Assembly (NCBI GenBank): GCA_004335835.1
Contig: RWJK01001243.1
Coordinates: forward strand, 128,969-192,968
Direction: 5' to 3'
From: Scenedesmus sp. ARA3
Taxonomy: Eukaryota > Chlorophyta > Chlorophyceae > Sphaeropleales > Scenedesmaceae
Length of the DNA stretch: 64,000 nt
This document shows, in pieces, positions 1 to 64,000 of the stretch. How positions within the stretch are numbered: position 1 is the first letter of the stretch; each line of letters opens with the position of its first letter. The notes below the pieces were generated by a model. It was given only the letters and a program-made list of their open reading frames with translations, was not told the DNA's origin and ran no database searches. A program made the position numbers and the translations under genes.

Positions 1-87
1 GCTGCGCGGTAGGAAGTCAGGCGCCTGCATGCTCCTACGCCCATGCTTGCACACTGCAAACACATGCGCTTACACAAGATTCTGCTG

Positions 88-170
88 TGCCTGCCGCCAA
101 GATCCCGAACGGTATGCCCCGTCGGTGCCCAAAATGGGCAAGATTCTCTGCCTCAGCGAGGATAACTGCT
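88..170 (+). repeat. Decayed copy of FBPase exon start
   Basis: Resembles 175-260, i.e. intron end plus exon start. The exon part reads VPKMGKILCLSEDNC then stop, against [15 protein letters not shown] in the real exon. The acceptor AG has become CG. Confidence 0.75.
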
Positions 171-213
171 GACGCAAATTCCTGTGTTGTGTCTGCCGTG
201 CAAAACCCCGCAG

Positions 214-1217
214 GTGCCCGAGGTGGGCAAGATCTACTCCTTCAACGAGGGCAACTACGCGATGTGGGATGAGCCCACCAAGAAGTACATGGACAGCCTG
301 AAGGACCCCGCAAAGTGGGGCGGCAAGCCCTACAGCGCACGCTACATCGGCTCCCTGGTGCGTGGGGAGGCTCGGGTTGTTAGCAGCAGAGAGCTGGAAG
401 TGCCTAAACATAAGGGTTGAACGCAGTGTGTGTTGCGCATTCGTGTGCGACGCGCGTGAGGGTTTGGGTTTGCTAGCAGCTGCCAGGTTGCCAGCCTGGG
501 TGGTGTTTATGTGCTGCTGCTGCTGCTGCTGCTGTGTGAGCGTCATCAGAGCGTCTTCGGCTGCTCCATGATTCCGTCAGTTCAGCTAATACATCGCATC
601 GCCTCTGCTCACCCTGCTCTGCCTTGCTTGTTCTGCCACCTTTCTATAATCTGTCGCCAGGTGGGCGACTTCCACCGCATGCTGCTGTACGGCTGCTGAC
701 CCTGATCTGCTCTGCTCCGCCAATCTATCTGCAACCTTTCCGAACACCCAGGTGGGCGACTTCCACCGCACGCTGCTGTACGGAGGCATCTACGGCTACC
801 CCGGCGACGCCAAGAACAAGAACGGCAAGCTGCGCCTGCTGTACGAGTGCGCCCCCATGAGCTTCATCGCGGAGCAGGCCGGAGGCATGGGCTCCACAGG
901 CAAGGAGCGCGTGCTGGACATCCAGCCCACAGAGGTGCACCAGAGGTGAGCCCGCAATGTGGCAGGTGGCCACCAAGCAACATTGACAAGGAATAGCAGT
1001 CAACCCTGGAGCAACATCGTGTAGCCCCTTCCTGGCAAGACAGCCTTGAGCTGTGTAGCACAATGTGGCGGCGGCTGGAGTGTGCAAGCAAGTGTCCGAT
1101 CCACCCACACGCAACTAACCACATGCGCCGCTGCTGCTGCTGCTGCTGTGCAGGGTGCCCCTGATGATCGGCTCCAAGAAGGAGGTGGAGTACTACGAGT
1201 CATTCTACAAGAACTAA
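214..1217 (+). CDS. FBP1: Plastid fructose-1,6-bisphosphatase, 3' part
   Basis: Calvin-cycle enzyme that hydrolyses fructose-1,6-bisphosphate to fructose-6-phosphate in the chloroplast stroma. Three exons fit by phase: 214-357, 752-945 and 1154-1217, ending at TAA. The translation runs [12 protein letters not shown], then [58 protein letters not shown], and ends [16 protein letters not shown]. This is the FBPase C-terminal half, with the substrate-binding YSARYIGS segment and the YECAPMS block. The N-terminal half, including the transit peptide and the redox-loop cysteines, lies left of the window, so plastid rather than cytosolic identity is inferred from sequence resemblance to plant and algal plastid forms. 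Both introns before the last exon carry decayed copies of the following exon start (88-170 and 652-696). A TGTAA motif lies at 1814-1818. Confidence 0.93.
652..696 (+). repeat. Copy of FBPase second exon start, acceptor intact
   Basis: Repeats the acceptor and first 34 bases of the exon at 752. It reads [12 protein letters not shown] and then an in-frame TGA. Use of this acceptor would truncate the enzyme. Confidence 0.85.
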
Positions 1218-5203: not shown

Positions 5204-5234
<31 letters not shown>

Positions 5235-6648
5235 GTGGTGTGGCTCTTGGGAGGAGTGCTGCTGCTGCCCCTGGTGTGCGAACTCCTGCTATCGTTTTCG
5301 TGCAGGCACTCGCCGCCATGCTAGGTCGCTGGGCTTACTCCATGTCGTCTCCTTGGTTATCTGCAGGACAGGGACCGCCACATAGCTTGTTCGAAAACAG
5401 GGAGCAAGCACGCACTCCTGCAGGGCAATGTGCAGTAATGCAGCTGCCCCACTGTTGACACGCATCACCCTAGCTGTTGGGTCATGCCGTGACAAGTCGT
5501 GATGTGAACCGTATACAACGAACGACGCAGCCGACCAAAACATTGAAGACGTAGCCACCACAGCACAAGGCGATCTAAGCAGAAACCGGCTAAAGCAGCG
5601 GCCAGCAGGACACCTGCATGACAGCCCACTCGGAGCATCAGGAGACTTTCCACCGGGTCCCTCCCTGCTCCAGCATAGCTTGAAGGTGTGTCAACATGCA
5701 TTTACTCTTGACTAAAACAGTTTTCCTTTCACCTGGTTGTAGTAGTAGGGCCGCTCCATGTCTGCGCTGTAGTGCTCCACCCAGGTGTAGCCTGCAGCCT
5801 TGGGGTCCTCACTCAGCCGCTCACCGCCAGGGCCCAGCCAGTAGCGCAGCCCTGCCTCATCTTCAAAGGCCACGTCACCAGGGTCTGCACACAACCAAAC
5901 AACATACAAGACCGAAAGACAACATAACCTAAGAACAGGAGTCAGGGTGCAGCAGGAGGCGGGAGAGTGGAGGCCTGCGGAAGCAGAACGAGCAAGGCAA
6001 ACATGCAGCACTGCTGTGTGGATCATAGCGCATTGAAAATACCTCAGGACATCCACGTCCTCACATGCCATGTCACCAGGGTCGGCACATAACCACAGGA
6101 CAAGATCAGACAAGACAAGAGAGGAGATACAGAAGCCGGAGTATATGAGTCCGGTTGCAGCAGGGGCGGGAGAGAGGGAGGACGTTGCCGTGCACGCGTG
6201 AAACTTGCTGCAGCAAGGGATGTGCTGCTGCCACTGCTGCTGCTTCTACCTGTTGCTGGTGCGGCTGCACAGCTATGATGTGTCAAGTGACGCTGTGTTT
6301 GACTTTATTGTGTGCTGCGCACTGCAGAACCTACCCTGGAAACCATGCGAGCCAAAACTGCCTGCCAGTGTACGTGCTGGCGATGGCAGAGTGATGATCA
6401 CGCACTGCTGCTGCGATAATATGTTGCATGCACGACTGCAGCAGGCCTACAGAGCACAACGAATGAAACTTCTGACAAATCTCACCTTCCCATTGCACCT
6501 CGTTCGTCACCTCATTCCAAAAGTAGTACTGAGGCTCCTGCTGCTGCTGCTGCTGCTTGCCTGCTGCCTTGGTTTTCTGTGTAGCGCAAGCTGCTGGCCG
6601 CGGTACAGCGCATAGTGACAGCAACAAGAAAGCTACAAACACCAGCAT
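3200..6648 (-). CDS. Secretory-pathway membrane protein with WW domains
   Basis: Exons on the minus strand: 6486-6648, 5733-5884, 5310-5360, probably a polyQ exon ending at 5198, then 4312-4408, 3571-3664 and 3200-3355. The start is the ATG at 6648, chosen because it opens a signal peptide (MLVFVAFLLLSLCAVPRPA). A first WW-like motif follows (PQYYFWNEVTNEVQWEDPGD), then AFEDEAGLRYWLGPGGE, and a fuller WW domain (GYTWVEHYSADMERPYYYNQ continuing ITKETTWSKPSDLAW). The C-terminal exons encode three hydrophobic segments: VLGVGAGVFLLAFFLL, IYAIVALVLLAS and IIPLVVVIVLVSVGALASLL. WW domains bind proline-rich peptides; the partner is unknown. The joint between 5310 and 4408 is the weak point. The phases fit if a glutamine-rich exon lies near 5198-5270, but the intron between it and the WW exon would be under about 60 bases. 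Family not recognised. Confidence 0.7.
6041..6175 (-). repeat. Decayed copy of intron end and start of WW exon
   Basis: Parallels 5840-5970. It reads DPGDMACEDVDVLRYF against DPGDVAFEDEAGLRYW in the real exon, and the intron sequence next to it is also similar. The acceptor AG is CG in the copy. Confidence 0.8.
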
Positions 6649-6977
6649 AATTCGCCACCAGCGATTGGGTATGACTACTGCCCTGAGCTTACTTCGGAAC
6701 CAGATACTATTGCTATGATCGTCGGCGATTGGGTTCTTGGGTTTGTGTCTATAGAAAAGCAAAGGCGATATGAAAAATCTTGCGTGCCAATCATGCAGGC
6801 GATGTTGTTGATATGCAGTCGTGGTGTCACCAGCAATTGTCACCAGAACATGCCCTTGAAATACAGCAGTCGTACAGCCAAAGCAGACAACCTTGCTCTG
6901 CAGTTCTCATTGCGCAAAGCACTGCAAGCATATCTGGTTGCCCCTCTGGCCCAACCCCATGTCACGCATCCGTCACA

Positions 6978-9210
6978 CTACAACCGCTGCTGCCAAAACC
7001 GCAGCACTGCACAATCAACACTGTCAGGCTCGGCAGCATGTTGCTGCATGCAGCTCAACATCTGAGGCATAAGGCTCTGCCAGCCACCAGCTGACTGCAG
7101 CTCTGCTTCTAACTCCACAAGCTGCTGCAGGACTGCAGGGCTACTGCCCTGCCCCGCTTGACCGTCCAACTGCTGCTTACTACTCGCTGAGCTGCTGCCG
7201 CTGTCACCTAACAAGCTTTGACTGTCAGCACTACTGTTGCTGTTGCTTTTGCCGTTGCTTCCAGCGCCACCCGGTGCCACAGGCGCCGTGTCTTCCTGCT
7301 GCAACTGCTGCTGCTCAGCCAGCGCTGCATGCTCCACTTTCTGCCGCACCTGCTGCAGGCTCGGGCATGCTGCCACAGCTGCCTGCAGCTGCTGCTCTGC
7401 CTGCCTCACCAGCTGCAGCACTTGGGGCCTCTCAGCAAAGTAACGCCCAGACGCAGCCTGCAGCAGCAGCGGGTTCACACCAGCCGGAGAAGCCTGTTGT
7501 GTAACCTGGGTGCTGTCACCTGCTGCTGCTGCTGCTGCTGCTGCCTCAGGCCATGCAGCGCCGCTGCCGCTGCTGCCGCTGCTGCCGCTGCTGCTTGCAG
7601 GAAACCTGTCCTGCAAGCGCAGCAGGGCCGCCATGTCTGCGAGCATGCGGCTTTTGATGCTGCGCATGACGGCTGCCGTTTCCGGGTCCTGGTGGGCCCA
7701 TGCCAGTGAGGGTGATGCGTTGACCTCCAGCAGCCAGGGCCGCAGCTCAGCATCCAGAATGAAGTCCAATCCTGCAGGCAACAATGGTTGCCGGAACATG
7801 AGCGTTGCAGAAATATGAGAGGTGCAGGAGCAGGCTGGATGCCAGCAGCCAGGGCCGCAGGTCAGCATCCAGAATGAAGTCCAGGCCTGTCAACGTACAG
7901 CAACATGAGGTTTGCAGGAACATGCGGTTGCAGGAACCGTGAGTGCGCGAGCGGTTGTATGACCTCCAGCAGCCGGGGCCGCAGGTCAGCATCCAGACTA
8001 AAGTCCACGTCTGCTGATACGATCGGTTGCAGGAGCTGTGACTAGCGTTATGTCGCACTCACCCATCAGCTCAAAAGCACAGGTGCCCTGCTGCATCTGC
8101 ACGCCCCCTGTTGGCTGACTGGCAGTACAGTGCTATATGTTGTTCCCTGCAACAGCAACCGCCATCGCACCCCCACACACCCAGCAGTGAGATAGCACAG
8201 GTGTCCTTCGGCAAGCAGTGCCCCTGATGGAAAGTCACGCTTGCGCTCTCTTGCCAGTCCAAAACTACACCGTACAGCAGGCCCTATAACAGCGCAATAT
8301 TTCACATACATATGAAGCCCCCCCACTCACCCAGCAGCTCGAAAGCACAGGTGCCCCGCGGCATCTGCAGCTCCCCTGCAGCCTGCTGCACATGCGGCGC
8401 TGCTGCTGCCATCACCTTGCCGGCTGTGGCTGACAGCTGCTGCTGCAGCGTGGCTGCTGCTGCAGGGCCGAGCAGCGACAGCAGCTGCTGCATGGGCCAC
8501 ACCTCGCCTGAGGTGTTCTGTGCGTGGTTGGTCAGGTGGCCCTGCAGGCGCATGGCGTATGTCGGCAGAGCGCATGGGGAAAGTGTCAGTGCGGTTGTGC
8601 CGCCGGCAAGTGGCAAAGCAACTTGACAGTGTAGCAGCATCCCTTCTTGAACTAACGATCGATGATTCAGCAATACTCATCCTGTAAACAGGGTTTGCTG
8701 TTCCTCAAGAAAGCATGCAAAAGCCTTCACCTGAACATAGCACAGCTGCAACACAACATGCAGAAACTTCATAGGGATAGAGATGTTTTGCAAAACGCGT
8801 CCAGGCTGCAACATTAAGTTTTATAGGGTGTGTGCTGTGCTGAATAGAGTTGCCTCATTGTGCCTACCTGTGCTGCTGCACCATGTGCTGCCACAGCCTC
8901 CATGTCAGCATTGTACTGCTCCTTACTGAACAACACTAAGCCCTCGTGGTACAGGTACGCCCTGAAGGGTTTAGGGCCGAGCGCTAAAACCCACAGCCGC
9001 AGCCCAAACTTGCGCCCCTGCACCAGCAGAGGATGAGTGATGTACTGCTGCACACAGATGAAGGGACGAGGCAGCGCGGGAGCAGCAGCTGCTGCAGGGT
9101 TGCTACTGATGCTGGTGCTGTCACTGTTACTGCTGCTGCCAGTGCTCCTGGTGTTGCTCACGGCACCAGCAGCAGCAGCATGCTGCTGTCCTTGCTGCTG
9201 CTGCTGCTCT

Positions 9211-9248
<38 letters not shown>

Positions 9249-9375
9249 CCCTGGTGGGGTCAGGTAGGGTTTGTTGCGCTGCAGCAGTGCTGACAGTGAC
9301 CTGCTTGATGGCACCACCAGCAGCCCCTGCCCCAGGTGCTCCCCTGTCTTCAGAACATAGTAGCCAGTGATGGGC

Positions 9376-9413
<38 letters not shown>

Positions 9414-10632
9414 GCTTGCTGTATTGCCGCTGGTGCTGGAGTCGCTTGCACCAGCACGGTTGCTGCTGCTAGACGCTGCTGATGCTGCCGCTGCTGCTGC
9501 AACCGCCTGCATTGCTGCTGCTTCCTCTTGCAGGCGCAGGCGCAACTGCTGCAGCTGGGCAGGTATGCTGCACGGTTCAGGGCGGCAGCATGGGTGGCAG
9601 AAGCGGAAGCAGCAGTTTTGGCGCCTGAGAAAGACAACTGCTGCACAGCACAACTGCTGAACGGAAACAGCAGCAGCCACAATGATGGAACATAAAAATC
9701 TGTCATGTGATACCAGGTGCTGTCGCAACCATAAAGCATCATGCACATATTCCTTGTTGTGTGGAGCATCAAGTATGTGCTTCTGCTGCTACCCAGCATT
9801 CAGCCTGCCCCTCCAGCCCACAGTGTGTCGCCGCACCTGTACGTGCGTGGAAGCATCTGCCACGCCTCATCGCCAAATGCATTGTGCAGCGTTACCGCCA
9901 GGTGGCGCTTCTTGCTCAGGCAGTCAGTGCCTGGGCAGCAGTTTGTTGGGGCAGCGTGTAATGTTGAAGCAGGCGCGGCAAACACAGCAAGGCATTCAGG
10001 AACCGTCATCGTCCACAAGTATCCACAGATCAACGTAGCATGCATGGTATCAGCGCCCCTCCTGCACATGAGCCTTGCGCACGCAAGTGTTGACACCTGG
10101 CAGTGTGCGCCTGGCCCGGCGGCCAAACCTAAAGATGCGCTACTGCTGGTGTAGCAGTGTGTGCTGCAGGTGAGTCACCATGTCAGCCGGCTGTGGTGTG
10201 CTGCTGCTGCCATGTCATGCCTGCTGACCTGGCAGTGGGCTGACATGTCACGTATGCTGACGTGTTATGCCTGCTGCCGTAGATTGCATGCCGACCTGGC
10301 AGCATGCTTAAGTGTTGTGCTTGCTGACATATCGTGGCTGCTGACCTGGCAGTGTGCTGATGTGTCGTGCTTGCTGATGTGTACAGTCTGCAGACCTGGC
10401 AGTGTGCTGATGTGTCATGCCTGCTGACGTGTACTGTCTGCTGACCTGGCAGTGTGCTGATGTGTGATATATGCTGATGTGTACCATTTGCTGACCTGGC
10501 AGTGTGATGATGTGTCATATATGCTGACATGTACCATTTGCTGACCTGGCAGTGTGCTGATGAGCTGGCCCTGCCTCAGGAAGTGTGCAGCCTTCAGTGC
10601 ACCGTCCGAGGTTGACCACAGCACATCCCAGC

Positions 10633-10666
<34 letters not shown>

Positions 10667-28166: not shown

Positions 28167-28783
28167 TCTGCTGCTGCTGCTGCTGCATATCTCGCGCCCA
28201 ACATCATCATCTTCACGGCCACAGGACCTGTACAAGCAGATTGTGTGGCCGCTGTACAAGCTGTACGGGCATGCCTTTGATGCTTTCAAGCTCATGCTGC
28301 TGCGGCTGCATCCTCAGTTACATGACTCCTGTGTTTCTTGTTTTACTGTGCATATGCAGGACCTGTACAAGCAGATCGCGTGGCCGCTGTACAAGCTGTA
28401 CGGGCACGCCTTTGAGGCCTTCAAGCTGATGGTGGCAGATGACGGCGCGGCGCTTGTGAAGCGGCTCGAAGAGGAGCGGGGGCCGCTGACGGTGCTCACA
28501 CCAGAGGTGCGCTGGCGCTGGCCCTGCTGCTGCCATGCTGGGGTTATAGAAGGGGTTTTGTTGATTTATTTGTTGTAGATCTAATTTGTCATCAACATGT
28601 GGCAACTGGTAGCAGCCCTGTGATCAGGGGTTTAGGAAACTACCTAAGCCGCACCCAGCCGCACCCAGCCTGCTCAGGTTTGGGTCTGCTCTGGTGTTCA
28701 GCATGATAGATGGCGCGGCGCTTGTGAAGCGGCTGGAGGAGGAGCGGGGGCCGCTGACGGTGCTCACGCCAGAGGTGCGCTGG

Positions 28784-28822
<39 letters not shown>

Positions 28823-49753: not shown

Positions 49754-49755
<2 letters not shown>

Positions 49756-49964: not shown

Positions 49965-50806
49965 CTATGGTGCTCCGCCAGCTGCTGCTGCTGCTGCTGC
50001 CGGCGCTGCTGGTGCAATGCCGCTGCGTCTGCCCAGCTCCTCCAGCTGGTGCAGGAACTCCTCACCAGCCAGCATCTCGGTGGCACCATACAATACCTGC
50101 AGCAGCAGCAGCAGCAGCAGCGGTCGGGCGTGAAAGTTGTAAGCAGGTAAGTGGTTGCAGCGCACCAGGCTGCGATGACAGCTGTGCACTGCGCAGCACT
50201 TGACATGGTCCGTGTTCAACGCGGTCAGGCAAGCCGTCACGGATACGCATGCGAGCCGTGGCCTGGCGGTCGTCCGCCGTGGCACAACTCATACATGCAT
50301 AAGCAGGCGGCGGCTGGATACATACAGACAGCGTCTGCATCCACTGCTGTGTGCACAGCATTGATTTCAAGAGCTGGCTGGACCCCTCCGTCACTGCTGT
50401 GTGCACAGCATTGATTTCAGAAGCTGGCTGGACCCCTCCGTCTCATACAATTTATAACTACAGCCAGCTGAAGCTGCAGCCGCAGGCCTGGCTGCCTCGC
50501 ACCTGGCGCGGGGGCGTGCTCCTGCTGGCCCACGCAGCCAGGCTCTCTCTCGCTCAAGCTTCAGCCTGGCAGTCAGCTGCAGGCGCAAGCGCACATCTGC
50601 CGTGGCACAACCCATATACATGCATGAGCAGGTGCTGTGTGGATACATATAGATAGCTTCTGGATACTGATGGCAGCCGCACCTGGCGTGGCGGTGTGCT
50701 CCTGCTGGCCCATGCAGCCAGGCTCTCCCGCTCCAGGTAGTTGCCTCCGCCGATCATGAACACCAGCGCCTCACGGAAGGGGCCTTTGGCGCGGTCCAGG
50801 CCTGGC

Positions 50807-50841
<35 letters not shown>

Positions 50842-51117
50842 GAGGAGCAGGTGGAGGAGAGAAACTGTGAACAAGAAGTGATTTGAAATCCGTCATCAAA
50901 TTGGCGATTTGCGCCGGTGCATGCCCTTGAAGCCTAGCTGGTTTGAAGCCAAAAACATGTTGCCGCAGCACGTTGTCGCAGGACCGGCGCGCATCACTAC
51001 TGGCACAGGTGCATGCAGCGGCATGGAGCCGCAGGCCTGCTGCAGGCCGGCTTAGGTGGTACAACAGCCACAGCAGGCTTGCTGACAACATGATTTAATC
51101 ACGGTTGCTGCATGTAC

Positions 51118-51177
<60 letters not shown>

Positions 51178-51274
51178 TGCTTTGCTTGCTTGCTTGCTGG
51201 CTGCTGCGCACCTGTGCGCCCCGGGGGCAGCTTTGGGTCCATGACTGCAAAGCTGTCAAACTCCTGCGTGCCCT

Positions 51275-51315
<41 letters not shown>

Positions 51316-54300: not shown

Positions 54301-56832
54301 CTTTTGTTTTTCTGCAGCTGCCTGTGCAGGCACAGCAGAGGTTGCGCAGCAGGGCAGATGGGCAGTGGTTACAGGCTGGCAGTTGAGTGCACGTCTTGTC
54401 ATTTTGCCTGCCCGTCTTCCCTCTTGGTTTCGCTCCTGCTGCCCGCAGCCGTAGCTGCTGCCAATTTTCCATACTGTGTCATGTATTCTCCCCATGAAAC
54501 GTTTACACAAAACCTTGCACAGTATGCGAAACAACACGGCTGCAAGCATACGGTTGTCAACACTGTTCCATGCGGCGGTGATCTCGCCTATGGGAAGGGC
54601 AGCACCCCAGCAGCCTCCCAGAAGAAGTCCTTGTCAACAGCATCAAAAGTAACACAAGTTGTGACAAGGTTGAACATCAACTTTTAAAGGCAACTATAAT
54701 ATAGTTACACACTGGTCATGACACAGGCAACACTGCACCCACCTTGGGGAAGGGCAGCGCCCCGGCAGCCTCCCAAAAGAAATCCTTGTCATCAACGTCG
54801 TAGCTCTTCTTCGCGTGCTGCGGCAGCAGCCCCGCACCCGGCGGCAGTCCCGCTGTGTCTGGTGCCAGCGTCACGCGGTTGAGCTTGAGGCCCAGCACAT
54901 CCTGCAAACACGGTGAAGTGAGAACAAAGGCATTCAGCATGAAATGCATCAACAGCAAATGTCGCTCAAACCCTGCCGTTGTGAATGCAGCAAATGAAAC
55001 CTTGCGGTTCAACTTGAGGCCCAGCACCATGCAAGGCAGCAAGCAATGGGGTCAATGGCGTGCGCCATGCATGCTTCAGCAACGGTGCATCGTCTTGGAC
55101 GTGGCGCCAGCGTCACGCGGTTCAGCTTGAGGCCCAGCACATCCTGCAAGAGAACAGAACCACAGCAAACACAGAAGCATGCGGCATGCGCTGCATCAGG
55201 ATGGCGGTTCAGCTTGAGACCCAGAACATTTTGCAGTATGCTGCTACAGCAGGCCAGGGTCAGGGGCACGCGGCTACACACCAGACCACCTGCTATACAG
55301 CCACACCACACGAAGCCTCGCAGGGCCGCTCTTTTGCCCCACCTGCACCAGCGGCTTGTATGACCATGCGTGCTGCAGCATCGCACTCAGGTCAAAGTTA
55401 CAGTCCAGCAGCCACACAAGCAACGCAAGCGCTGGAACCATGCGCCCCGGTCGTGCGTCAAACCAAAGCTTGCCTCACCTGCACCAGCGGCTTGTATGAC
55501 CACGCATGCTGCAGCATCACGCTCAGGTCGAAGTTCCTGTCCAGCAGCACCAGCAGCGGCCGCGACAGTGTAGCAGCAAGTGCGCTGGCACCCTCGCTGA
55601 ACAGGTTGCTGCGTGCTTTCAAGTGGTCCCGCAGCTTTCCTTCCAGCGCTGCTGCCACGTGCTCTGCTGCGCCACCTTTGGGGCAGCGGATGATGGGCAC
55701 GACTCCTAGCGTGACAAGCACTGAGAAGAGGCCGTCCACGATTTGACCCACAGCGCTCTGAAGAGCACACAGCACATGCGGTGGCGGTTGCAAAGGGGCA
55801 GGATGTCGCAGCAGAAGTACGGCAGACAGCAGTTGCACATGAAATGCGGCCTTGGGTGACATGTCTCAAAAAGTTATGGCAGCATCAACAGCGCCTATAG
55901 CTCCCACCAGCTACACACACTGCTATGGAAGTTGGTGCTATTCACAGCTGCTCATTCCATAAACCAACTGATCATAGAGCGCCTGGTTGACCAACTGGTG
56001 CTTGCTGACGCCCTGCAGCTCGCCCAGCATGGCTGCACTTCTGCAGCCACGTCAATAACCATACCACGTCACCCTGCTGGCCTGCTTGCTGCTATCCGAC
56101 CTCCAGCAGCAGCAACTGACCAATCACCCAAACCCGCTGCGCCTGGCACTGCTGCTGCCTTGTCATACACCCGCGACGTTCCTCCAAATGCACCTCAGCT
56201 CACCTCTATCTGTGTGTCCCGCGCTGTGGGATCATTTAGAGCCAGGTAGCTGTCCGGCAGCCCCAGTGAGAAGCAGCTGGGCTCCAGCGCAATAAATGAC
56301 AGGTACTCATCGAAGAGTTTGGCCACTCGGCTCACTGCGTTTGCTTTGACCACACCGCTTGCCAGCTGCTCTAACAGCCTGCTTGGCACTGAAGTGGCAA
56401 AGTTGACGTGCATGACATCATACAGCTGCTGCTGCGCATCCTGGATGATGCGCTCCACGTTTTCTGGCGTTGGGTGCACGAAATAGATTGCAGGAACATC
56501 CGGAATGGCCTGCCGCTCCTGCTCAAGCAGCAGGTGCAGGGTGATGCCCTGCGCGCGCAGCTCACTGACGCGCAGCAGCGGCGCTATGATGTCTTTGCAG
56601 TGCCTGTCCAGCACCAACACTTTGTACAGGTCGCCCTGGTCCCTGCTGGTTGCAGCTGTGCCATGCAGGTTCAGCATGCGCAGCAGCGCATCTGCAAGGC
56701 AGCAGGAGGCAGCAGGTGCAAGGCAAAGGAGAATGCGAGCTGCTCAAGAGCTGTGTAGATGAGCAAGTGCAACTATCACACAACATTAATGCCCTAGTCA
56801 CCTGCTTGTTTCTGCCTGATGTTCAGCGACAT
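49965..56832 (-). CDS. SLY1: SLY1, Sec1/Munc18 protein of ER-Golgi transport
   Basis: Binds the Golgi/ER syntaxin and promotes SNARE assembly for ER-to-Golgi vesicle fusion. Eleven minus-strand exons, all phases consistent: 56802-56832, 56204-56691, 55479-55757, 54743-54901, 54022-54189, 53286-53435, 52617-52815, 51694-51860, 51212-51272, 50683-50801 and 49965-50096, about 650 residues (human SCFD1 642). The start MSLNIRQKQADALLRMLNL matches the family N-terminus. Further blocks: LYKVLVLDRHCKDIIAPLLR, GITLHLLLEQERQAIPDVPA, LFDEYLSFIALEP, LVTLGVVPIIRCPKGGAAEH, RPLLVLLDRNFDLSVMLQHA, DVLGLKLNRVTL, NLMSAVSSLPELQEKKKVLD, PFREALVFMIGGGNYLE and VLYGATEMLAGEEFLHQLEE. The C-terminus adds an alanine run. 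Most introns hold partial exon copies (15 counted), the densest set in the window. Confidence 0.96.
50503..50555 (-). repeat. Copy of SLY1 exon 10 end with donor
   Basis: Matches the end of exon 50683-50801 (LAAWASRSTPPRQ region) and its GTGCG donor. Confidence 0.88.
51115..51177. repeat. (CTGG)15 tetranucleotide array
   Basis: Near-perfect array in SLY1 intron 9, continuing as TGCT-rich sequence to 51200, directly beside exon 51212-51272. Confidence 0.95.
51277..51314. repeat. (CAG)12 tract at SLY1 exon 9 acceptor
   Basis: On the minus strand it forms the pyrimidine-rich CTG run leading to the acceptor at 51273. Similar CTG runs precede exons 10 and 11 (50806-50840 and 50101-50123). Confidence 0.9.
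51994..52286 (-). repeat. Two copies of SLY1 exon 8 start
   Basis: 51994-52068 and about 52222-52286 copy QGALGAPSQGNLLDWADKAL of exon 51694-51860. The nearer one keeps the GCCGCAG acceptor. Confidence 0.93.
52480..52520 (-). repeat. Copy of SLY1 exon 7 end
   Basis: RLVGSARPAPG bases of exon 52617-52815 repeated; the donor GT is GC in the copy. Confidence 0.88.
52879..53098 (-). repeat. Two copies of SLY1 exon 7 start
   Basis: 52879-52953 and about 53024-53098 copy GAKGTAADKLRLGL and AAESAP of exon 52617-52815, acceptors kept. The nearer copy runs into a stop before the real exon. Confidence 0.93.
53507..53755 (-). repeat. Three copies of SLY1 exon 6 start
   Basis: 53507-53537 (ERKKKVLDKHM), about 53588-53648 (EKKKVLDKLTNLATSLL) and 53706-53755 (EKKVLDKHTNLL) copy the start of exon 53286-53435. 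The path from 53648 through 53537 to the real acceptor at 53435 is open and in frame. Confidence 0.93.
54262..54330 (-). repeat. Decayed copy of SLY1 exon 5 sequence
   Basis: QLQKNK and the SSKTAG-like bases resemble QLQKYKAAVDEINSKTAGG of exon 54022-54189, upstream of it in gene direction. Confidence 0.65.
54592..54646 (-). repeat. Copy of SLY1 exon 4 end
   Basis: DKDFFWEAAGVLPFP against DKDFFWEAAGALPFPK of exon 54743-54901; a stop replaces the final lysine and donor. Confidence 0.9.
55001..55233 (-). repeat. Three copies of SLY1 exon 4 start
   Basis: The VLGLKLNR-coding bases recur at about 55001-55028, 55110-55143 (CTTGCAG acceptor intact) and 55203-55233, all upstream of the real acceptor at 54901 in gene direction. 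Confidence 0.92.
55343..55402 (-). repeat. Copy of SLY1 exon 3 end with donor
   Basis: LDCNFDLSAMLQHAWSYKPL then VQ and a GTGGGG donor, against LDRNFDLSVMLQHAWSYKPL of exon 55479-55757. Confidence 0.94.
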
Positions 56833-57471
56833 AGTGCTCCTGCTGTGCTACAGGTGTGCTCCTCGCTCCTGCTGCTGCTTTACGGGCTCAGCACCAGCCC
56901 ACGCTTCTGATCAGCACGATATCAGTACAACATTTGTAGTATCATTCAAATGACGATCACCAGGTGGCTGCAGCGTGTGCTGAAAGTCACACAGAGCAGT
57001 TGCTTCGGGTATAAACGTTGTGTCTCTTTCGCGAAGTACAACCATCGGCACTGCGCAACTGGTGGTTTGCAGCTACACAACAGCTGCTTGCTCTCTTACA
57101 AGATTGACACACCTCAGGGGTTCAGGGCACTTCAGGGTTCTACAACTGTCAAGGCCTTCCACCCTGATGGCGGGGTGCACACCCTGATACCATTTTGTTC
57201 TCTTGGTGATGGCACAAGCGTAGCTCTTTCGTCTGCATGTGTTTGTCAGTTACTGCTGCGTTTTTTTGCTGGCAGTTGATGCGCCCTGTAACCAGCTTCC
57301 TGGGCTTGGTAGGTTTGCAGACAGTTGCACGCGTCTTGCACATCGTAACACCCCATGTTCTAGCGACCTGTTGTTCGGTTTCATGCAGTCAGATTGAAGT
57401 AGAGCAAGGCAGCACTTGCGCCACGCGCTGCAGCACACTGCAGCATGCTGGCGGCAGCACTGTCACAGTGT

Positions 57472-57526
57472 GGACACGGTGTCCGACACAGTCGGCGAGT
57501 CGCCAACACTGTGGTGAGACCACAGT
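57472..57526. repeat. Cluster of three inverted repeats
   Basis: GGACACGGTGTCC (57472-57484), GGCGAGTCGCC (57494-57504) and ACTGTGGT-GAG-ACCACAGT (57508-57526), each perfect. Confidence 0.9.
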
Positions 57527-57691
57527 ACCTGCCACTACCTGCCAGGGTCCAGTAGTGACAACATTGCTGGCATTGCACGAGACATCAGAAGACTTGGACA
57601 CATAAGGCAAATATATGTTAACACTGACCAGAGACAAGCATAGTGTCTGTATGTGACCGGCCTTTGGTCCTGTTAGAAGCGGCTACTAGCC

Positions 57692-57710
57692 GTGGTAGTA
57701 CCACGTGGTA
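57692..57710. repeat. Overlapping palindromes
   Basis: GTGGTAGTACCAC (57692-57704) and TACCACGTGGTA (57699-57710) share their middle arm; the second contains a CACGTG box. Confidence 0.9.
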
Positions 57711-57793
57711 TCTGGTGTAAGAATTGCACGGCACACCCACTGCCCAGCCATGGCCGAATCACATGCACAACCATCGCTATGCAGCTGCACCAA

Positions 57794-59573
57794 CTATGGT
57801 TTAAAGCCGTTACCTACGTATACCAGATCTGATCCCAAAACACTATGCAGCTTGAATGGCTTTGTCGCCATCACTTTCTCAACGTTCGCCCTAGCTTGGC
57901 CATCATTCACCTGCATGCATGCAGCAGCAGCAGCAGGCACATGGGGTTAGTGCCGCACAACACAGCGCAAGCAAACAGCAAAAACGGGTGCTTAGCAGAT
58001 GCTGGCTATATCTGCAAGGCAACATTGCTGCAGCTGGTGAGAAAAGTAACAGCATGAACAGCTGGCAGTCAGCACAAGCACAAGCCTCAGCAGCAAGCAA
58101 AGCCAGAGCCAAATCCCTGCCATGCCAACTGGCAGCATGCACCCCTAATCACGCAGTTAGAGCTGATGCAGCATCTGAGCAGCAAGATACACTTCATGCT
58201 TGATCAGCCTGCAGTACCAGGGTGTGCTCACCTCGACAGTCATAACACGGACATCAATCTTGTCAAAGTCCGTGGCGTTCAAAATTGCCGCCTCGCTTCC
58301 CTCGGTGTCAAGGCTGCAGCAAGGCAAAATGCAGTCGCAGCAGCTTATGTTGTGCTGGGGAGCATGGCGGTGCAGAGTCCATCCTGGAAAGACACTCAAG
58401 CCACAATGGGGTGGATCAACTAATTCCATATTGACTTTGATAGCTGAGCATTGGTGTCAGGGGCTGCATGCCATGCACATGCCGTAAGCGTAGCTCAAGT
58501 GCGCAGCATGTCAATTTGGTTTGTCCTGCAAGGCGCGTCCTGCAAGGCATGTCCTGCAAGGTGTATCCTGCGAGGTGAGGCATGTAACACCCGTTCTACA
58601 GCAATGTCCTGCAAGCAGCATCTTGCTGTGTCATCCTGCAAGCTGAGTCCTGCAAGGTCTGTCGTGCATGCTGCATCTGGTGGTTCTATTGATCTCATAC
58701 CACGTAGTCCCCAATGCCGCCAGTGACATTCTTGCAACAACCTTGCGCCAGTGCCTTTTCAGCTGCTCACCTCCAGTAGTCAACCCTAGTTTTCCCCAGT
58801 GCAGCCATCATCTCATGCAACGGCCAGCACGTTACACTGACGGTTTTGCCTGTGTTAATTGGGCCAGCCGCATCGCCCGCTGCTTTGATTTCGCTCTTCA
58901 TGCGGTGGTCGTGTGCTTCTGACATGTAGCCAGTGAGGCCTCCAAGGAAGCCGCCTAGTGCAAAGTCCAGCACTTCGCGCTTGCCACTGGGAGACAGGCA
59001 TGCGTTGATAGCCCTTGAAGCCGTTCTGTTACTGCTGCTCATGAGCATCTCAAACAGCTCCGGGTTCGCCTCAACAAGCAGCCCAGTCCAGTTGCGGTTG
59101 GCCTCCAGGAACACTGTGTTGCTGAGGGACGTGCCATCATGCGCACCAGACTCCACAAAGAAGCCACCGGTCATGCCATGTAGAAGCTCATCAATCAACT
59201 TGTCTTGGTCTAACTGTGAGGCGTGCTTCGCAGTAGGGAGGGGGTTGCCAGCAGCAGGCGTCTTGAAGGCAGCTGCTGGAGGCTGGCCCTGCTCTTTGCT
59301 GGGGTCTGGTGCACCAGCAACTTCTGGCTGACTGCTTGTGGAGCCGGTTGAGCTGCTGTCAAGGGTGCCAGCATATTTCACTGAAGCCTTTAACCGGACC
59401 ATTGTTTGTGTGCTTGATACACTGCATACATGCAGGGTTGTCACAGCTGTCAACAGCACAACGCCAGTCATAATGGCCAGCAGTAGCAGCCGAGCACGAC
59501 ACCCGTCTACTGTGCGCTTCATGTATTTCATTGTTTTCATTGTCAAGCTGTGTGCTTTTCGGTGTGTCGGCAC
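57794..59573 (-). CDS. Type II membrane protein with FkbM methyltransferase domain
   Basis: Minus-strand exons 58771-59573, 58232-58313 and 57794-57910 join in phase (333 residues). A short basic N-terminus (MKTMKYMKRTVDGCRARL) precedes one membrane anchor (LLLAIMTGVVLLTAVTTLHV), then a linker rich in S, P and A. The lumenal domain has FkbM-family marks: FFVESGAHDGTSLSNTVFLE (SAM-binding loop), NWTGLLVEANPELFEML, RAINACLSPSG, VDYWSLDTEGSEAAILNA and VRVMTVEVNDG. It ends VLGSDLVYVGNGFKP. The architecture suggests a Golgi enzyme O-methylating glycans or similar substrates; the substrate is unknown. The start could be the ATG at 59573 (MPTHRKAHSL) or one of the next methionines. Intron 1 contains a GTCCTGCAAGG minisatellite. 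Unlike its neighbours, it shows no exon-edge copies. Confidence 0.88.
58515..58680. repeat. GTCCTGCAAGG minisatellite
   Basis: About seven variants of TGTCCTGCAAGGC at irregular 10-30 base spacing in intron 1 of the FkbM gene. They resemble a minus-strand CTTGCAGGA acceptor-like motif. Confidence 0.75.
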
Positions 59574-60426
59574 AGTGTCAGCACGCAGTACTTGTCACGC
59601 AGCGCGTCCACTTGACCACCTGCAAGCTCGGCGTAGATCACAAGCAGGCGTTCATGAGAGCAGGGAAATGACATGCAAATATAAGCGAGGTTGAAGTGAC
59701 GTGTCGGTTATCAGGGCGTTTGAACATTGACAAGTTTGACTCGCAGAACCCGAGCAAGGGTTTCGCTGGCCCCTCAAGCCTCGAGACGTCCCAAACGCGA
59801 TTTGAACACTATACAGGCAAGAATTTTTCGCTGATCTTATTTTGCAATAGTTCCTGCGGTTGCATAGAGTGCATGGAGTTGACGGTTGTAACGGTTATTC
59901 AAACAGTTGCAGACACCATCGTCATGATGGCACCATGGCGGCAGCAGCAGCTCAAGACAGAGCGCTGAGGATTTCAGCGTGGTGTGTCGGCAGGTGGCTC
60001 CGATAGTCTGCAGCCATGCCAGCCTGTTATCCTCAAATAACTGCAGGCCAGCGCTGCCGTAGCACTGACAGCACACCCTTGACCTACAACACTTTACACC
60101 CAACTAGGACCTCGACATGTGGGCACTGCCTGTAAGTTGGCAATCAAATCGCTTTAACTGCTACTCCCTGCCCCAGCAGCTGCTGACTGCTGCAGTTGCC
60201 CGCGAGCCCTGCCTGCGCCCAAATGTGCTGGCTGTGCGCTAGGTCACGCCGCGCATGAGCACCACAGCTGCCGCTGCAGCCTGTTGACCAGGACACACCA
60301 GCTGCCCCGGCAATCGTGTGTGCCGACTACTGTGTAACAGTGTCTTGCCAACGACATGGAAAGACAGACTGAACACCCATCACGACAGGCAAACATTGCC
60401 AGCAGCCAAGTCAACCCCACAAGCCA
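59574..60426. other. Spacer between FkbM gene and SYF1
   Basis: Promoter side of the FkbM gene and 3' side of SYF1; TTACA at 60094-60098 is a possible minus-strand TGTAA signal. No exon recognised. Confidence 0.45.
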
Positions 60427-63400
60427 TTACTCCACTCTCCGCTTCTTGAAGCGCTCCAGCGCCCCAAGCTGCTGCTCGCCCTGCTGCTGCTCCCCGCCCT
60501 CAGCCTGTCCTGCAAGTGCCCCAAACACTCCTGCAGGCACTGCCTTTGTCTGCAGCTCAGGTTCAGCCTCTGCGCCATCTGCAGCAGCTGCCTCGTTGCC
60601 TGCATCTTCATCATCATCTTCATCACCCAGCTCAATCTCTTCTGGATTGGCTGCAGCTGCGGCAGCAAAATAAACGCAAACAGCAGTCGACGCAGCAGCA
60701 GCAGCAGCAGCAGCAATGAAGATGGTGGCTCGATATCACAGTACAGAAAGGCGGCCACAGCGTACTGTGCAGCGTGTGCCGTTGTGTCTCTCTAACGTTG
60801 CAATGTGTTGCGCAGCAAGCTGTTGATGCCGGCAGGTTAACAAAAACAGCTGCAGCTCTGTGCATGCACAACTCAACCATGGCGCTGACACTGGTCTGGT
60901 GTCGAATCGACACAACACTGAAGCCAGCCGTCGAGCTGCTTTCTGCACCCTGTCAGGCGTTTGCAGCGGCTGCGTTCAAACAACTGATTCGCAAACATAA
61001 GGACCAAAACATACATGCACGGCTGCGGCATTTGGCCCACAACACCAACTCAGTAGGGTGATCTGGCAAAACTGAAAACATATCCCACACCCTGGACCCA
61101 CCTGCAGCTGCTGCTGCCGCCTGCTGGCCAGCTGCTGGAGCCTGCTGCCCCTGCTGGATGACCCCAGCAGACACAAACCCTGACAGCCGCGTGCCCTTGT
61201 CAACCAGGGCAGCAGCCTCAAGCGCAGCCATGCTGTCGCCGCCCGCTGCTGCTGCTGCTCCGTCTGCGGGTGCTGCTGCTGCTGCGTCTGGCACAGGGGC
61301 CGCGGTGTGGATGTGCATCTGTGCGTAGCTGGCGGCGACCGACCTGCAGCAAACCAGCAGCATCAGCAGCAAAGTTACACAGAAGTACACAGCAGTCCTT
61401 AGCAGCACAGTGTGTCATCCTTTATACCACATGTACAACTGCCAATACTGCGTTGGCTGCCCTGCAGCTGCCCTTGCACCATACTTCTGAACTTATGACA
61501 TCACCGCCAGATGTAAAGCATTCATCAAGTCTTGGAACAGCCCCAAGCCGCAGTGTTACGCGCCAGACCCTGCAACTAATCCCATACAGCGGCGCGAAAC
61601 CTCTTGAAGCGCACCTCTTGATGCGCAGCATCTCACTGAAGGTGTCCTCATCGCCACATGTGACTGCATGCATGCTGCCCTCCAAACAAGCCTGAAACCG
61701 TAAAAACCTATGCCTGACACCCAGGCCTGAACCCCGCACCTCTTGATGCGAAGCATCTCCTTGAAGGTGTCCTCGTTGCCGTGGCGCACCTCAAACTCGT
61801 TCCACGCCTCCCAGAAGGGCCTGCGGCGGCACACAGCGCAGGACAGAGTGTAGGTGTTTCTGAGGCGTCTGGACGGTGTGTGAGTTGCAGTACAGTGCAC
61901 AGGTGAAGGTTGGAGGTGTTGTTGGCATAAATAGAGGGCTACAAGCAGCTGCAGAGGGGAACAGCTGTCACATGGCGTGCAACACAGCGCTGAAGCTCAG
62001 GAACAACAGTCTGCTTACCGTGCCCGTCGCGGGTCTGCCAAGTGGCTGCCGTGCACAAAGATGGCGCGAGCCCGATCGATCTCGCCCAGCTTGCGCTCCA
62101 GCTGCGCGTAGCGCACGCACAGGTTGCGCACGTCCTCCTCAGGCAGGTCGCCCGGCGGCTCCGACTCGATGGCTGTCTCGTAGATCTCACGCACCTGTAA
62201 TATACAAACAATGCAAGAAAGCAGGCCGCCGGAGGTTACAAAACACAGGAGGTTGAAGATGCACAGGTTGCGCACATCTTCAACGGGCAGATCCCCGGGC
62301 GGCTCCGATTCGATGGCTGTCTCGTAGATCTCACGCACCTGTCATACATTGATAATATATAGCAGCAGGCAGCAGGAGGTTATGAAACATAAAAGGTTGA
62401 AGATGCACAGGTTGCGCACATCCTCCCTGGGCAGGTCCGCAGGCGGCTCAGACTCGATGGCTGTCTCGTAGATCTCAAGCACCTGCGCAGCAGCCGGCAG
62501 TTCACGCATAAAGGAGGATTGCAGGCTGCTTGGCTAAAGGGCTGATACATGTTGGCGTGCCAATGCTGCCCCGCATATCAGCATGTTGGCGTGCTCAAAC
62601 CTGCAAATTCGCAGCCGCTTGTACAGCTGCTAATGACACGCCAGCTGCCATGCCACGCTTGCAGATTCGCAGCCGCTTGTACAGCTGTTAATGACACGCC
62701 AACTGCCATGCCACGCTAGCAGCACGCTGCTGCTGCTGCTGCTTCTACTACTTCTGCTCCTGTTGCTGCTGCTGCTGCCGCTGCTGCTGCTGCTGCCGCT
62801 GCTGCTGCTGCTGCCGCTGCTGCTGCTGCTGCTGCTGCTGCCGCTGCTGCTGCCGCTGCTGCGCCGCACCTTGGCGATGCCGAAGAAGTCTGTGGCCCTG
62901 CTGACGTACAGCTCCAGGATGGACAGCCGCTGCTCCTTGGGCACAGCAGGGATGGCGCGCTCATACACCTGCAGGGCAGCATGGCACATGCGTTTTGGCA
63001 GCCATACGCGTTTTATTGAAATCACTGATGCCGACTGCGGACTGCAAAGCTGCACCAAACGTACACAAGCTGCTCATCTCCAGATTGTGCCCAGTAGGTC
63101 TGCCAATGCAACACGAAAGCTACACAGAAACACCACGAAGCAGCGCACACCTGCATGGCGTGCCGCGCCAGGCCGTGTTGCTCCTCCAGCGCTGCATACT
63201 CCAGGAACAGCGGCTTGGCCTGCTCGGGCGGGCAGTCTGCAGCAACAACACAGCAGGCAGGTGGCAGGCGGCAGACGGCAGACGCCAGGCAGATGGACTA
63301 AACATAGTTAAAGACAAGTGTACTGATGAGGCAGAGGGGCTTGTGGCAGTCAAACACACTGTGCTTGGCTGTAGCGTTGACGGGCAGCATGGCAGCAGTT

Positions 63401-64000
63401 TCATTGGGTGCTTACAGCAACAGCGAAGCATGCGTGTTCCTGCAAACTTGCAAGCAGCAGATAGCTTTGAAGACGACTTCAGTCTTTGCTGGCGCTGCAC
63501 AAGCAAGTCATTATGGGATACTCAGCAGGCGACTCACCCTTGAGCGCTGACTCAAACATGTCCCTGGCTCGCTCCAGCTTGCTGCCCCCATACCTGCAAC
63601 AGCCGCGGTGCAGCGGGCGCACGGCAGCACCAGTAACAGAAGCAGCGTCAGCAGCAGCAAGCAGCACAAGCAGTCGGCACAATGCTCTGGCACATCCCAC
63701 ATGGTCCTGTAGCATGTACAAAGACATGCACAGTGTTCCTACATGAAACGAGAAAGAACTACTTAGACACAAAGCCACGCGCGGCAGGTGTTCCTGCCAG
63801 GAGAAGTGCAACACAACACTAAGCGCCTGACCAGTCGCAGCAACACGTCCACACGTCCACTTAACACATGATGCACCATGCTGCTTACCGCGCCACGAAG
63901 CTCTTGATGTACGCGGTCCAGATGTCAGCCACGTGCGGATACTTGAACAGCGCCGTGCCGCGCTCATACACCTGGAAGGCTGCCTCCCAGTGCTTGGCCT
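60427..64000 (-). CDS. SYF1: Pre-mRNA splicing factor SYF1/XAB2, C-terminal half
   Basis: HAT-repeat scaffold of the Prp19/NineTeen complex in the spliceosome, also linked to transcription-coupled repair. Minus-strand exons: 63889-beyond the window edge, 63538-63593, 63151-63236, 62870-62968, 62019-62194, 61740-61820, 61102-61343 and 60427-60656, all in phase. HAT units include [100 protein letters not shown] and the hallmark [20 protein letters not shown]. The tail has the acidic [20 protein letters not shown] and VPAGVFGAL, as in XAB2, and ends [11 protein letters not shown]. An alanine/glutamine-rich insert interrupts the tail (exon 61102-61343). The N-terminal half lies right of the window. 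Two exons have partial copies beside them. Confidence 0.95.
61615..61662 (-). repeat. Copy of SYF1 exon end with donor
   Basis: [13 protein letters not shown] then a GTGCGC donor, against [13 protein letters not shown] and GTGCGG at the end of exon 61740-61820. Confidence 0.9.
62257..62482 (-). repeat. Two 144-bp copies of SYF1 exon start
   Basis: Copies ending at 62338 and 62482 repeat the start of exon 62019-62194 ([18 protein letters not shown]) at exactly 144-base steps, with intron. The nearer copy has an intact acceptor and is open and in frame to the real exon. The farther one meets a stop just before the nearer. Confidence 0.95.
62725..62868. repeat. Compound CTG/CCG tract
   Basis: About 130 bases of CTG units with CCG and a few other interruptions in a SYF1 intron, abutting the donor of exon 62870-62968. 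Confidence 0.95.

Follow-up and report, generated by a model that had tools for sequence, protein, structure and literature searches.

Copies of exon edges in the introns of Scenedesmus sp. ARA3

Exon-edge copies in the 64-kb window

The 64-kb window, by which is meant the whole stretch of DNA analysed here, carries a fructose-bisphosphatase gene, eIF2-alpha, a helicase gene (exon edge 32620) that is presumably RecQ-like, an HlyIII-domain gene, Sly1 and a Syf1-like gene, together with further gene models. The presence of exon-edge copies in the introns of this Scenedesmus sp. ARA3 window is confirmed, and the copies are real. Self-BLAST of the window after masking of simple repeats returned 48 direct repeat pairs of at least 40 bits; the distance is below 300 bp in 44 of them and never exceeds 1,000 bp. 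An automatic count put the number of copies at 44, distributed over 29 predicted edges; 16 of these edges are of acceptor type (copy upstream of the exon) and 13 of donor type (downstream), with 14 on the plus and 15 on the minus strand.

The gene models come from a home-made finder that was self-trained on stretches of the same genome and chains neighbouring genes together, and they are predictions not based on RNA. Three of the 29 edges (29591, 52953 and 62338) belong to mini-exons that the finder predicted from copies, three copies being counted doubly, and edge 10545, with five copies, falls inside a 50-bp tandem array. Removal of the mini-exon edges and the array edge leaves 25 edges with 36 copies, two of them weak (edges 5884 and 18508), while edge 55479 is one further plain case absent from the automatic list. 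These counts bear out an earlier reading made from the sequence alone, which had put the number at about 40 copies and 30 edges. Its two mirror forms, with the complete exon on the outer side, were likewise found as described, as was the range of the copies, from 98% identity over 53 bp (32426/32613) to barely visible. Exon-finding programs may take such copies for real exons, as happened with the home-made finder.

Table 1. Exon-edge copies in the 64-kb window.
Feature	Position	Strand	Exon edge and remarks
Acceptor-type copy	657-692	+	upstream of fructose-bisphosphatase exon start 752; 97% over 36 bp, offset 91; FBPase_C domain
Acceptor-type copy, weak	6058-6088	-	5884; score 37
Two acceptor-type copies	7842-7889, 7960-8007	-	7771; self-BLAST and automatic count
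Two donor-type copies	8057-8110, 8175-8226	-	8330; self-BLAST and automatic count
Two acceptor-type copies	14028-14085, 14187-14229	+	14316; self-BLAST and automatic count
Donor-type copy, weak	18615-18639	+	18508; self-BLAST and automatic count
Acceptor-type copy	28222-28299	+	eIF2-alpha 28360; 91% over 78 bp
Donor-type copy	28709-28784	+	eIF2-alpha 28507; 95% over 76 bp, offset 268
Acceptor-type copy	28996-29057	+	eIF2-alpha 29110; 95% over 62 bp, offset 80
Two donor-type copies	29504-29604, 29647-29742	+	eIF2-alpha 29344
Acceptor-type copy	32426-32478	+	helicase 32620; 98% over 53 bp, offset 187; DEAD helicase domain
Acceptor-type copy, including 41 bp of intron tail	33762-33878	+	33950; 94% over 117 bp, offset 147
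Donor-type copy	36800-36893	+	36730; 89% over 94 bp
Donor-type copy	39000-39066	+	38864; self-BLAST and automatic count
Donor-type copy	43706-43770	+	43587; gene model uncertain here
Acceptor-type copy	46915-46947	+	47043; HlyIII-domain gene
Donor-type copy	50498-50547	-	Sly1 50682; insertion missing in P0121, P0122, P0125
Two acceptor-type copies	51989-52080, 52223-52282 (span 51989-52284)	-	Sly1 51866
Donor-type copy	52482-52518	-	Sly1 52616; relatives without insertion
Two acceptor-type copies, spacing 138-145	52884-52985, 53028-53131	-	Sly1 52815; relatives without repeated peptide
Three acceptor-type copies	53507-53531, 53599-53652, 53720-53761 (span 53507-53764)	-	Sly1 53435; relatives without repeated residues
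Donor-type copy, own splice site lost	54592-54639	-	Sly1 54742
Three acceptor-type copies	55004-55027, 55102-55149, 55204-55235	-	Sly1 54901; relatives without repeated peptide
Donor-type copy (typed D, elsewhere A+D)	55334-55412	-	Sly1 exon end 55479; 90% over 79 bp, offset 136; relatives without repeated peptide
Donor-type copy	61610-61655	-	Syf1-like 61739; Syf1/CRNKL1 HAT repeats
Two acceptor-type copies, period 144	62261-62342, 62405-62485	-	Syf1-like 62194

Placement and spacing in the genome sample

Copies were found at 96 of 1,001 predicted junctions, some of the 96 being copies misread as exons by the gene finder, and these are spread over 14 of the 21 sampled segments; the other seven hold no copy family. 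The sample contains 187 direct repeat pairs less than 500 bp apart, against no inverted pair within 1,500 bp. For the analysis of placement, the 200 pairs within 1,500 bp were reduced to 178 by setting aside 13 pairs more than 500 bp apart (among them all five of segment L022, which are tandem paralogue exons), four of segment L020 beyond 9700 and five of the 27-bp satellite of L018, and segments L006 (N runs) and L030 (all N) were excluded from the placement null.

In 129 of these 178 local pairs, both copies contain the same splice junction and the whole exon lies outermost, where 300 rounds of random placement gave an expectation of 36.0 ± 4.8. Pairs lying only in exons are depleted (5 against 16.0 expected), and so are those confined to introns (15, expectation 39.5) and those in intergenic DNA (4, expectation 19.2). 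The remaining 25 pairs, 13 of which belong to known families, contrast in number with the 129 junction pairs, and exon interiors are therefore not copied into introns as often as exon edges, the outcome that the sequence-only reading had named as fatal to its proposal. The 126 junction pairs typed as acceptor or donor, to which the exon, intron and flank statistics below are confined, divide almost evenly into 65 acceptor and 61 donor pairs; length cuts leave 42 of 45 contiguous pairs for the gap rates, 117 of 126 pairs for decay and 93 of 96 junctions for the flanks. The offset, unit-length and gap totals include the 50-bp array at 10213-10562 with its three rows.

The spacing of the copies has two modes. 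Within preset ranges, 31 isolated pairs at 80-170 bp have a mean offset of 122.7 bp (SD 17), which falls within the 50-200 bp that mostly characterize the unit of rice-type duplications, and 27 isolated pairs at 200-300 bp have a mean of 246.3 bp (SD 20.5). It is the length of the unit that is tight, and not that of the filler: 46 of the 66 isolated pairs fall in the two peaks, against 33.8 upon permutation (p < 0.0002), and the trough between them holds 7 pairs against 12.5 (p = 0.016). An intermediate copy is present in 21 of the 30 junctions of the longer class. At least two copies occur in 37 of 94 families, with a maximum of six at one edge, and the nearest copy has the higher score in 20 of the 37, showing no trend toward greater likeness to the exon. 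A search for periods of 2.9-15.9 bp in the offsets found none above threshold, nor was any keeping of frame seen by inspection (58, 50 and 70 of 178 offsets leave remainders of 0, 1 and 2 modulo 3).

A link to CAG/CTG microhomology, which had also been suggested, finds no support, since CAG or CTG lies within 10 bp of 70 of 126 exon-internal ends (56%) and equally of 56% of random nearby positions.

Divergence and decay of the copies

The exon and intron parts of the copies differ markedly in their preservation. The intron part is visibly duplicated in 45 of the 126 junction pairs and cannot be seen beyond 20 bp in the other 81, referred to here as isolated. Similarly, at 58 of 93 junctions the match reaches no farther than 20 bp beyond the splice site, and the similarity of the flanks exceeds chance (p < 0.05) in 18 of these 58 isolated junctions but not in the other 40. 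The earlier description of the copies as tandem accordingly has to be qualified. At least 80% of the unit at 85% identity is retained in only two non-satellite pairs, both of which include exon and intron bases.

The exon parts of 45 isolated junctions with at least 40 bp of exon differ by about 12% (325 of 2,785 columns); mismatches are distributed mostly evenly along them, with fewer in the first 10 bp. In contiguous pairs, gap events number 0.48 per 100 columns in the exon part and 3.15 in the intron part, whereas in neutral copies the former should be about half the latter. The pair at 7723/7972 of segment L010 provides an example, whose 95 exon columns contain one mismatch and whose 181 intron columns contain 45. 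When whole-unit duplication followed by neutral decay was simulated (donor type, one duplication, seven equally weighted ages), 101 of 788 detected pairs were isolated, as compared with the observed 81 of 126; at the five ages yielding isolated pairs in number, differences averaged 12.5-21%, where the observed exon parts show about 12%. The exon parts of the copies thus outlast the duplicated intron parts beyond what neutral decay allows. Acceptor copies have a strongly pyrimidine-rich flank where the match enters the intron by at least 6 bp, and otherwise a weak one (p = 0.027, 21 copies).

Among 117 copies, 27 carry a frameshift (22) or a stop (5), and 37 have lost the splice dinucleotide. 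The peptides of the eIF2-alpha copies at 28709-28784 and 29504-29742 occur once in the related protein P0001, and the insertions or repeated peptides that the Sly1 copies would create are missing from the relatives' proteins P0121, P0122 and P0125. In isolated pairs, third codon positions differ three times as often as first and second positions, and exon-copy differences amount to 0.054 at 0-fold and 0.18 at 4-fold sites. Comparison of copies with one another gave a less pronounced silent excess (0.17 versus about 0.09, a 1.9-fold third-position excess) in the larger count, and no clear excess in a smaller first count. Coding constraint on the copies, at which the third-position excess hints, is not borne out by the copy-copy comparison, the decay and the relatives' proteins. 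Nor do the copies have the character of functional tandem exon duplications, in which whole exons flanked by splice sites at either end are used in mRNA, as they are partial and, in two genes, missing from the proteins of relatives.

Origin of the copies and comparison with known systems

We think it somewhat probable that the copies arise by recurrent direct tandem duplication of about 123 bp, of the break-repair kind known in plants, with selection keeping only those units that leave the exon intact. Tandem duplications by patch repair are reportedly treated in work by Vaughn and Bennetzen from 2014 and by Schiml from 2016. Two nicks offset from each other, or a break whose overhangs are long and complementary, would be filled in and end-joined, such that the stretch between both cut points is duplicated. 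Units lying within or splitting an exon would then presumably be purged by selection, whereas a unit reaching across from an exon into its neighbouring intron would leave a complete exon at the outer splice site and an extra piece that is intronic. Because such a unit straddles the splice junction and spares the exon, it would produce the two mirror forms and their fixed side, and genes would survive the duplication because splicing removes the extra copy. Repetition of the process may underlie the accumulation of up to six copies at one junction, at multiples of about 123 bp, and the intronic copies would be free to decay through the stops, frameshifts and losses of splice sites described above, consistent with their absence from relatives' proteins in two genes. 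As to the longer likeness of the exon part, our guess is patch-wise homogenisation with the conserved exon, that is, ectopic gene conversion.

Much of the junction placement would follow from selection against broken exons together with the longer time over which exon sequence stays recognisable. Yet intron-only and intergenic pairs are fewer than these two factors alone predict, which speaks against position-blind duplication even when their faster loss of likeness is allowed for, just as the scarcity of isolated pairs in the simulation speaks against whole-unit duplication with neutral decay. The shortage of noncoding pairs, the early match ends at exon parts that differ by some 12%, the unequal gap rates and the L010 pair would all fit a process in which duplication or upkeep is itself linked to splice junctions, with exon edges and splice signal preferentially copied or kept alike, for example because breaks accompany transcription or splicing, or because the exon serves to repair its intron copy. 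We regard such a link as rather unlikely, as purely intronic and intergenic pairs of similar spacing do occur, the third-position excess and longer exon visibility account for part of the bias, the exon-internal ends show no CAG/CTG signal, and flank similarity persists in a portion of the isolated junctions. An extension of the same idea, in which exon edges are hubs of a splice-junction-linked cycle that re-duplicates units of about 123 bp, refreshes the exon part from the living exon and loses the intron part, is doubtful; if true, introns would grow in steps of about 123 bp, carrying a self-refreshing record of their flanking exons. Of the earlier proposal of ongoing duplication across splice junctions, recurrence, intronic decay and tolerance through splicing are supported, while a tie of the process to the junctions is rather unlikely.

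That diverged haplotypes or contig ends were placed side by side in assembly is very unlikely. While the assembly is fragmented (1,567 contigs) with N runs at other loci, unit lengths near 125 and 250 could recall read lengths, and silent sites are enriched among exon-copy differences, the window contains no N, the offsets scatter over 80-160, and six copies can stand at one edge. Furthermore, the stops, frameshifts and lost splice sites are unlike alleles, exon-only duplications are depleted although an assembler would make those too, and a search of the alga's own genome with two window regions found no allelic contigs. It is less credible still that the copies are alternative or redundant exon ends under selection. 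The third-position excess, the splice signals kept in many copies and the pyrimidine-rich flanks of acceptor copies would fit this, but the copies are cut at arbitrary points inside the exon, decay, and leave no trace in the relatives' proteins of two genes; their 4-fold sites, moreover, have not diverged like the intron flanks, and the weaker copy-copy silent excess is what one would expect if an evolving exon had been duplicated serially. Fossils of intron gain, whether by duplication of an exonic AGGT segment (the Rogers model) or by introner-like insertion with target-site duplication, are highly improbable. Tandem duplication is a recognised route to new introns (PMC3443670, PMC2891723), but in the AGGT model the duplicated segment itself becomes the intron, whereas here the copy brings a splice site of its own, beyond which the intron continues. 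Introner elements form many similar dispersed copies, and no family repeated in the genome came up when two regions containing several spacers (2.0 and 4.1 kb) served as queries; with very common words skipped, the only matches outside the query region itself were a local one of 36 bp and another, of about 50 bp, elsewhere.

The copies form a natural collection for the study of intron lengthening, of the shielding of genes from small duplications by splicing, and of the repair step behind the ruler of about 123 bp. Several known systems resemble recurrent duplication as proposed here. In the potato RdRp gene, a tandem duplication across an intron-exon boundary likewise encloses intron tail, acceptor and exon head, and there a cryptic donor gave rise to an additional intron and exon piece (PMC4974935); that is one gene, whereas in the alga about one in ten predicted junctions is affected, the copy stays intronic, and no new exon appears in the two proteins checked. 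Patch repair in rice also gives direct tandem duplications, enriched among mutations of 50-200 bp, and their share of insertions drops from 70% at 125 bp to 5% at 200 bp, but the account as available describes no preferred 123-bp unit, multiples or exon-edge pattern (PMC7971508). By definition, duplications of this rice type arise when adjacent nicks are repaired, and not through slippage at small annealing sites. Human repair-mediated duplications are similarly nearby and short, a few with partial exon and intron, yet only 4 of 824 donors are of this kind, and donor and copy may be separated by as much as 5 kb, frequently with filler or deletions (PMC2671141). Fill-in by CST and Pol alpha-primase, which produces small tandem duplications where breaks have complementary 3' overhangs, offers a likeness in mechanism, drawn by analogy from human and mouse cells (PMC8355091). 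The tandem genomic duplication model of intron gain shares the principle that splicing makes the duplication tolerable, but there exonic AGGT gives rise to a new intron, while in the alga existing introns are lengthened (PMC3443670, PMC2891723). Single tandem duplications across a splice boundary were known already; in this alga such duplication marks about one in ten predicted junctions, and its unit has a preferred length.

Exon-edge copies in the window and the sample

The analysis covered the DNA sequence of one genome (87.3 Mb, 1,567 contigs), sampled as the window (C903:128969-192968) and 20 further stretches, which together comprise 21 segments and 258.8 kb on 11 contigs; sampling was uneven, with eight of the 20 drawn from two contigs, C665 and the window's own, C903. 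Gene models were produced by a small hidden-Markov gene finder, written for and trained on the sampled stretches themselves and checked on two genes. It predicted 534 exons, 510 introns and 1,001 exon-intron junctions, with donors mainly AG/GTGAG-like and acceptors TGCAG/G-like (slash, splice site). The window's Sly1-like gene matches Tetradesmus obliquus protein OEZ85_013119 (P0121) at 98% identity along the entire query, and the window's eIF2-alpha is 98% identical to P0001, a relative's protein with a transcriptome-assembly-like name; these matches suggest T. obliquus or a close relative as the source. Other window genes encode fructose-bisphosphatase, DEAD helicase, Syf1/CRNKL1 and HlyIII domains.

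After simple-repeat masking, BLAST self-comparison of the window (at least 40 bits) gave 48 direct pairs, 44 of them spaced by less than 300 bp, four by 300-1,000 bp and none by more. Across the sample (at least 45 bits), 187 direct pairs lay within 500 bp, 13 at 500-1,500 bp and six at 1.5-5 kb; at that threshold a single inverted pair was found, spaced by more than 1.5 kb, and none closer. This local excess of direct repeats cannot be chance. The sequence-only reading had described introns carrying partial copies of adjoining exon edges, and such copies are indeed present: 44 on 29 predicted junctions of the window (three of these edges being copies mistaken for exons by the gene finder, and one lying within a 50-bp array), and copies at 96 junctions of the sample, spread over 14 of the 21 segments. 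Its view that duplication is recurrent is also supported, as 37 of 94 families contain two or more copies (one copy in 57, two in 22, three in 11, four in one, five in two and six in one).

No exon-edge family was seen in seven segments (L008, L009, L016, L017, L019, L022 and L029). Those with printed models do contain predicted introns, and L008 and L009 share contig C903 with copy-rich segments.

Repeats and gene-model features in the window and in sampled segments
Stretch	Positions	Feature
Window	10213-10562	Tandem array of 50-bp units, about 6-7 copies, roughly 70-80% identity, at or beside predicted exon edge 10545; period unlike that of other families
Window	43174-43483	Reads as a cysteine-rich exon missed by the gene finder
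Window	50000-59500	FkbM-type methyltransferase fused with Sly1 in P0121, as by the gene finder; relatives' P0122 and P0125 are Sly1 alone; the fusion in P0121 could stem from the merging of gene models
Window	51107-51178	Long (GGCT)n tetranucleotide run in predicted Sly1 intron
Window	throughout	Many long CAG/CTG runs
L010	7723/7972	Copy pair; a single mismatch across 95 columns of exon, 45 across 181 of intron
L014	5525-6549	Head-to-tail units of about 128-135 bp, about 75% alike, over about 1 kb across one gene's predicted exons and introns
L018	6798-7019	Perfect 27-bp-period satellite within predicted intron

Placement and spacing of the copies

The 178 pairs of the sample comprise 65 of acceptor type, 61 of donor type and three of both, so that 129 fall on junctions, compared with 36.0 ± 4.8 expected from 300 random placements with unchanged geometry. 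All other classes are depleted relative to random placement: exon-only pairs (5 observed, 16.0 expected), intron-only pairs (15 and 39.5), intergenic pairs (4 and 19.2) and a remainder of other pairs (25 and 67.3). Seven of the intron-only and 13 of the other pairs belong to known families, and gene-finder errors seem to account for some pairs of the exon-only and intron-only classes, for example at 43174-43483. The two mirror forms described earlier, with the whole exon outside, are thus recovered under a typing that itself requires a whole outer exon; rule-breaking pairs would fall among the 25 other and five exon-only pairs. When one end of a duplicated unit lies in the exon and the other in the intron, the copy joined to the remainder of the exon is bound to lie on the outer side. 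The apparent rule of "always upstream" or "always downstream" therefore needs no special mechanism, and selection would explain the sides.

Offsets between copies peak at 100-160 and 220-280 bp among all 178 pairs, with few at 160-220 bp and a minor group at 360-430 bp. For isolated pairs, in which the match ends no more than 20 bp past the splice site, the mean offsets within preset ranges are 122.7 bp (SD 17, n = 31) and 246.3 bp (SD 20.5, n = 27). In 66 isolated pairs, exon part and filler add up to more tightly clustered totals than under permuted pairing (46 versus 33.8 in the peaks, p < 0.0002; 7 versus 12.5 in the trough, p = 0.016), and a further copy intervenes in 21 of 30 second-mode junctions. 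A complete unit of about 123 bp thus seems to be gained in every event, and tandem duplication of this unit is preferred over pasting of the exon edge. Furthermore, the 19 pairs of the intron-only and intergenic classes are similarly spaced, which speaks for a ruler independent of splice sites.

Decay of the copies

The copies are intron sequence undergoing decay, as the sequence-only reading had held. Five insertions, wholly or partly copy-derived, were placed in the Sly1 protein by the gene finder; all five are absent from P0121 (annotated T. obliquus), P0122 and P0125 (the latter two with transcriptome-style names), where the flanking residues are directly joined. Similarly, each copied peptide is present once in eIF2-alpha P0001. 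Among the 117 of 126 junction pairs scored for decay, 22 copies carry a frameshift and five a stop (27 either), and 37 have lost GT or AG, some possibly through register errors. This splice-dinucleotide loss is seemingly above the mismatch rate of adjacent exon bases; the excess might reflect selection that removes decoy splice sites, or again errors of register.

Divergence between exon and copy is 0.054-0.055 at 0-fold sites and 0.178-0.184 at 4-fold sites; between copies the values are 0.087 and 0.201. These differences fit free drift of the copies, silent-only change of the exon and serial duplication, with a silent excess, by our own reckoning, about 1.6 times larger than that scheme predicts. 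In 42 of 45 contiguous pairs, whose intron part is visibly duplicated, divergence is 0.173 in the intron part and 0.080 in the exon part, and gap events per 100 columns number 3.15 and 0.48, respectively.

Similarity ends within 20 bp of the splice site in 58 of 93 junctions. In-register flank identity is 0.45-0.46 at 6-12 bp and near chance past 45 bp, gapped flank alignment exceeds chance (p < 0.05) in 18 of the 58, and the exon part of isolated junctions differs by 0.08 in its first 10 bp and 0.11-0.13 beyond. Whole-unit duplication with neutral decay was simulated on 235 real donor-type junctions, each given one duplication of a first-mode unit, over seven equally weighted ages. Isolated pairs made up 101 of 788 detected, versus 81 of 126 in the real set. 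An older mix of ages would yield more isolated pairs, yet with differences exceeding those observed (simulated means were 12.5-21% at the five oldest ages), so that simple neutral decay is rejected in quantity. Persistence of the exon part could instead arise from gene conversion by the exon or from a junction-linked process. In the L010 pair, silent sites are nearly unchanged as well; it is therefore read as what looks like homogenisation, not coding constraint.

Origin and precedents

No CAG/CTG signal was found at the exon-internal ends of copies, and the suggested link to such microhomology is not upheld. Together with direct orientation, the unit of about 123 bp and recurrence, this points to break repair through fill-in and end joining. 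Such repair would produce a direct tandem duplication of the unit, after which selection would leave units with one end in the exon and the other in the intron, giving the fixed sides. In rice (PMC7971508), insertions come most often from tandem duplications, which are enriched among 50-200 bp mutations, their share of events dropping from 70% to 5% between 125 and 200 bp, and fill-in with end joining is the proposed source; in human and mouse cells (PMC8355091), this repair has been demonstrated. The direct duplications here are read in the same way.

Among the matches listed from the open-licence literature, which excluded subscription papers, none was concerned, judging by title and opening of the abstract, with introns that systematically carry exon-edge copies, or with such a feature in Tetradesmus. 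Duplication across boundaries is already known from single cases. Partial exon/intron sequence occurs in four of 824 human repair-mediated duplication donors (PMC2671141), and the potato case (PMC4974935) is one tandem duplication across an intron-exon boundary that created a new intron, whereas here copies occur at 96 of 1,001 predicted junctions.
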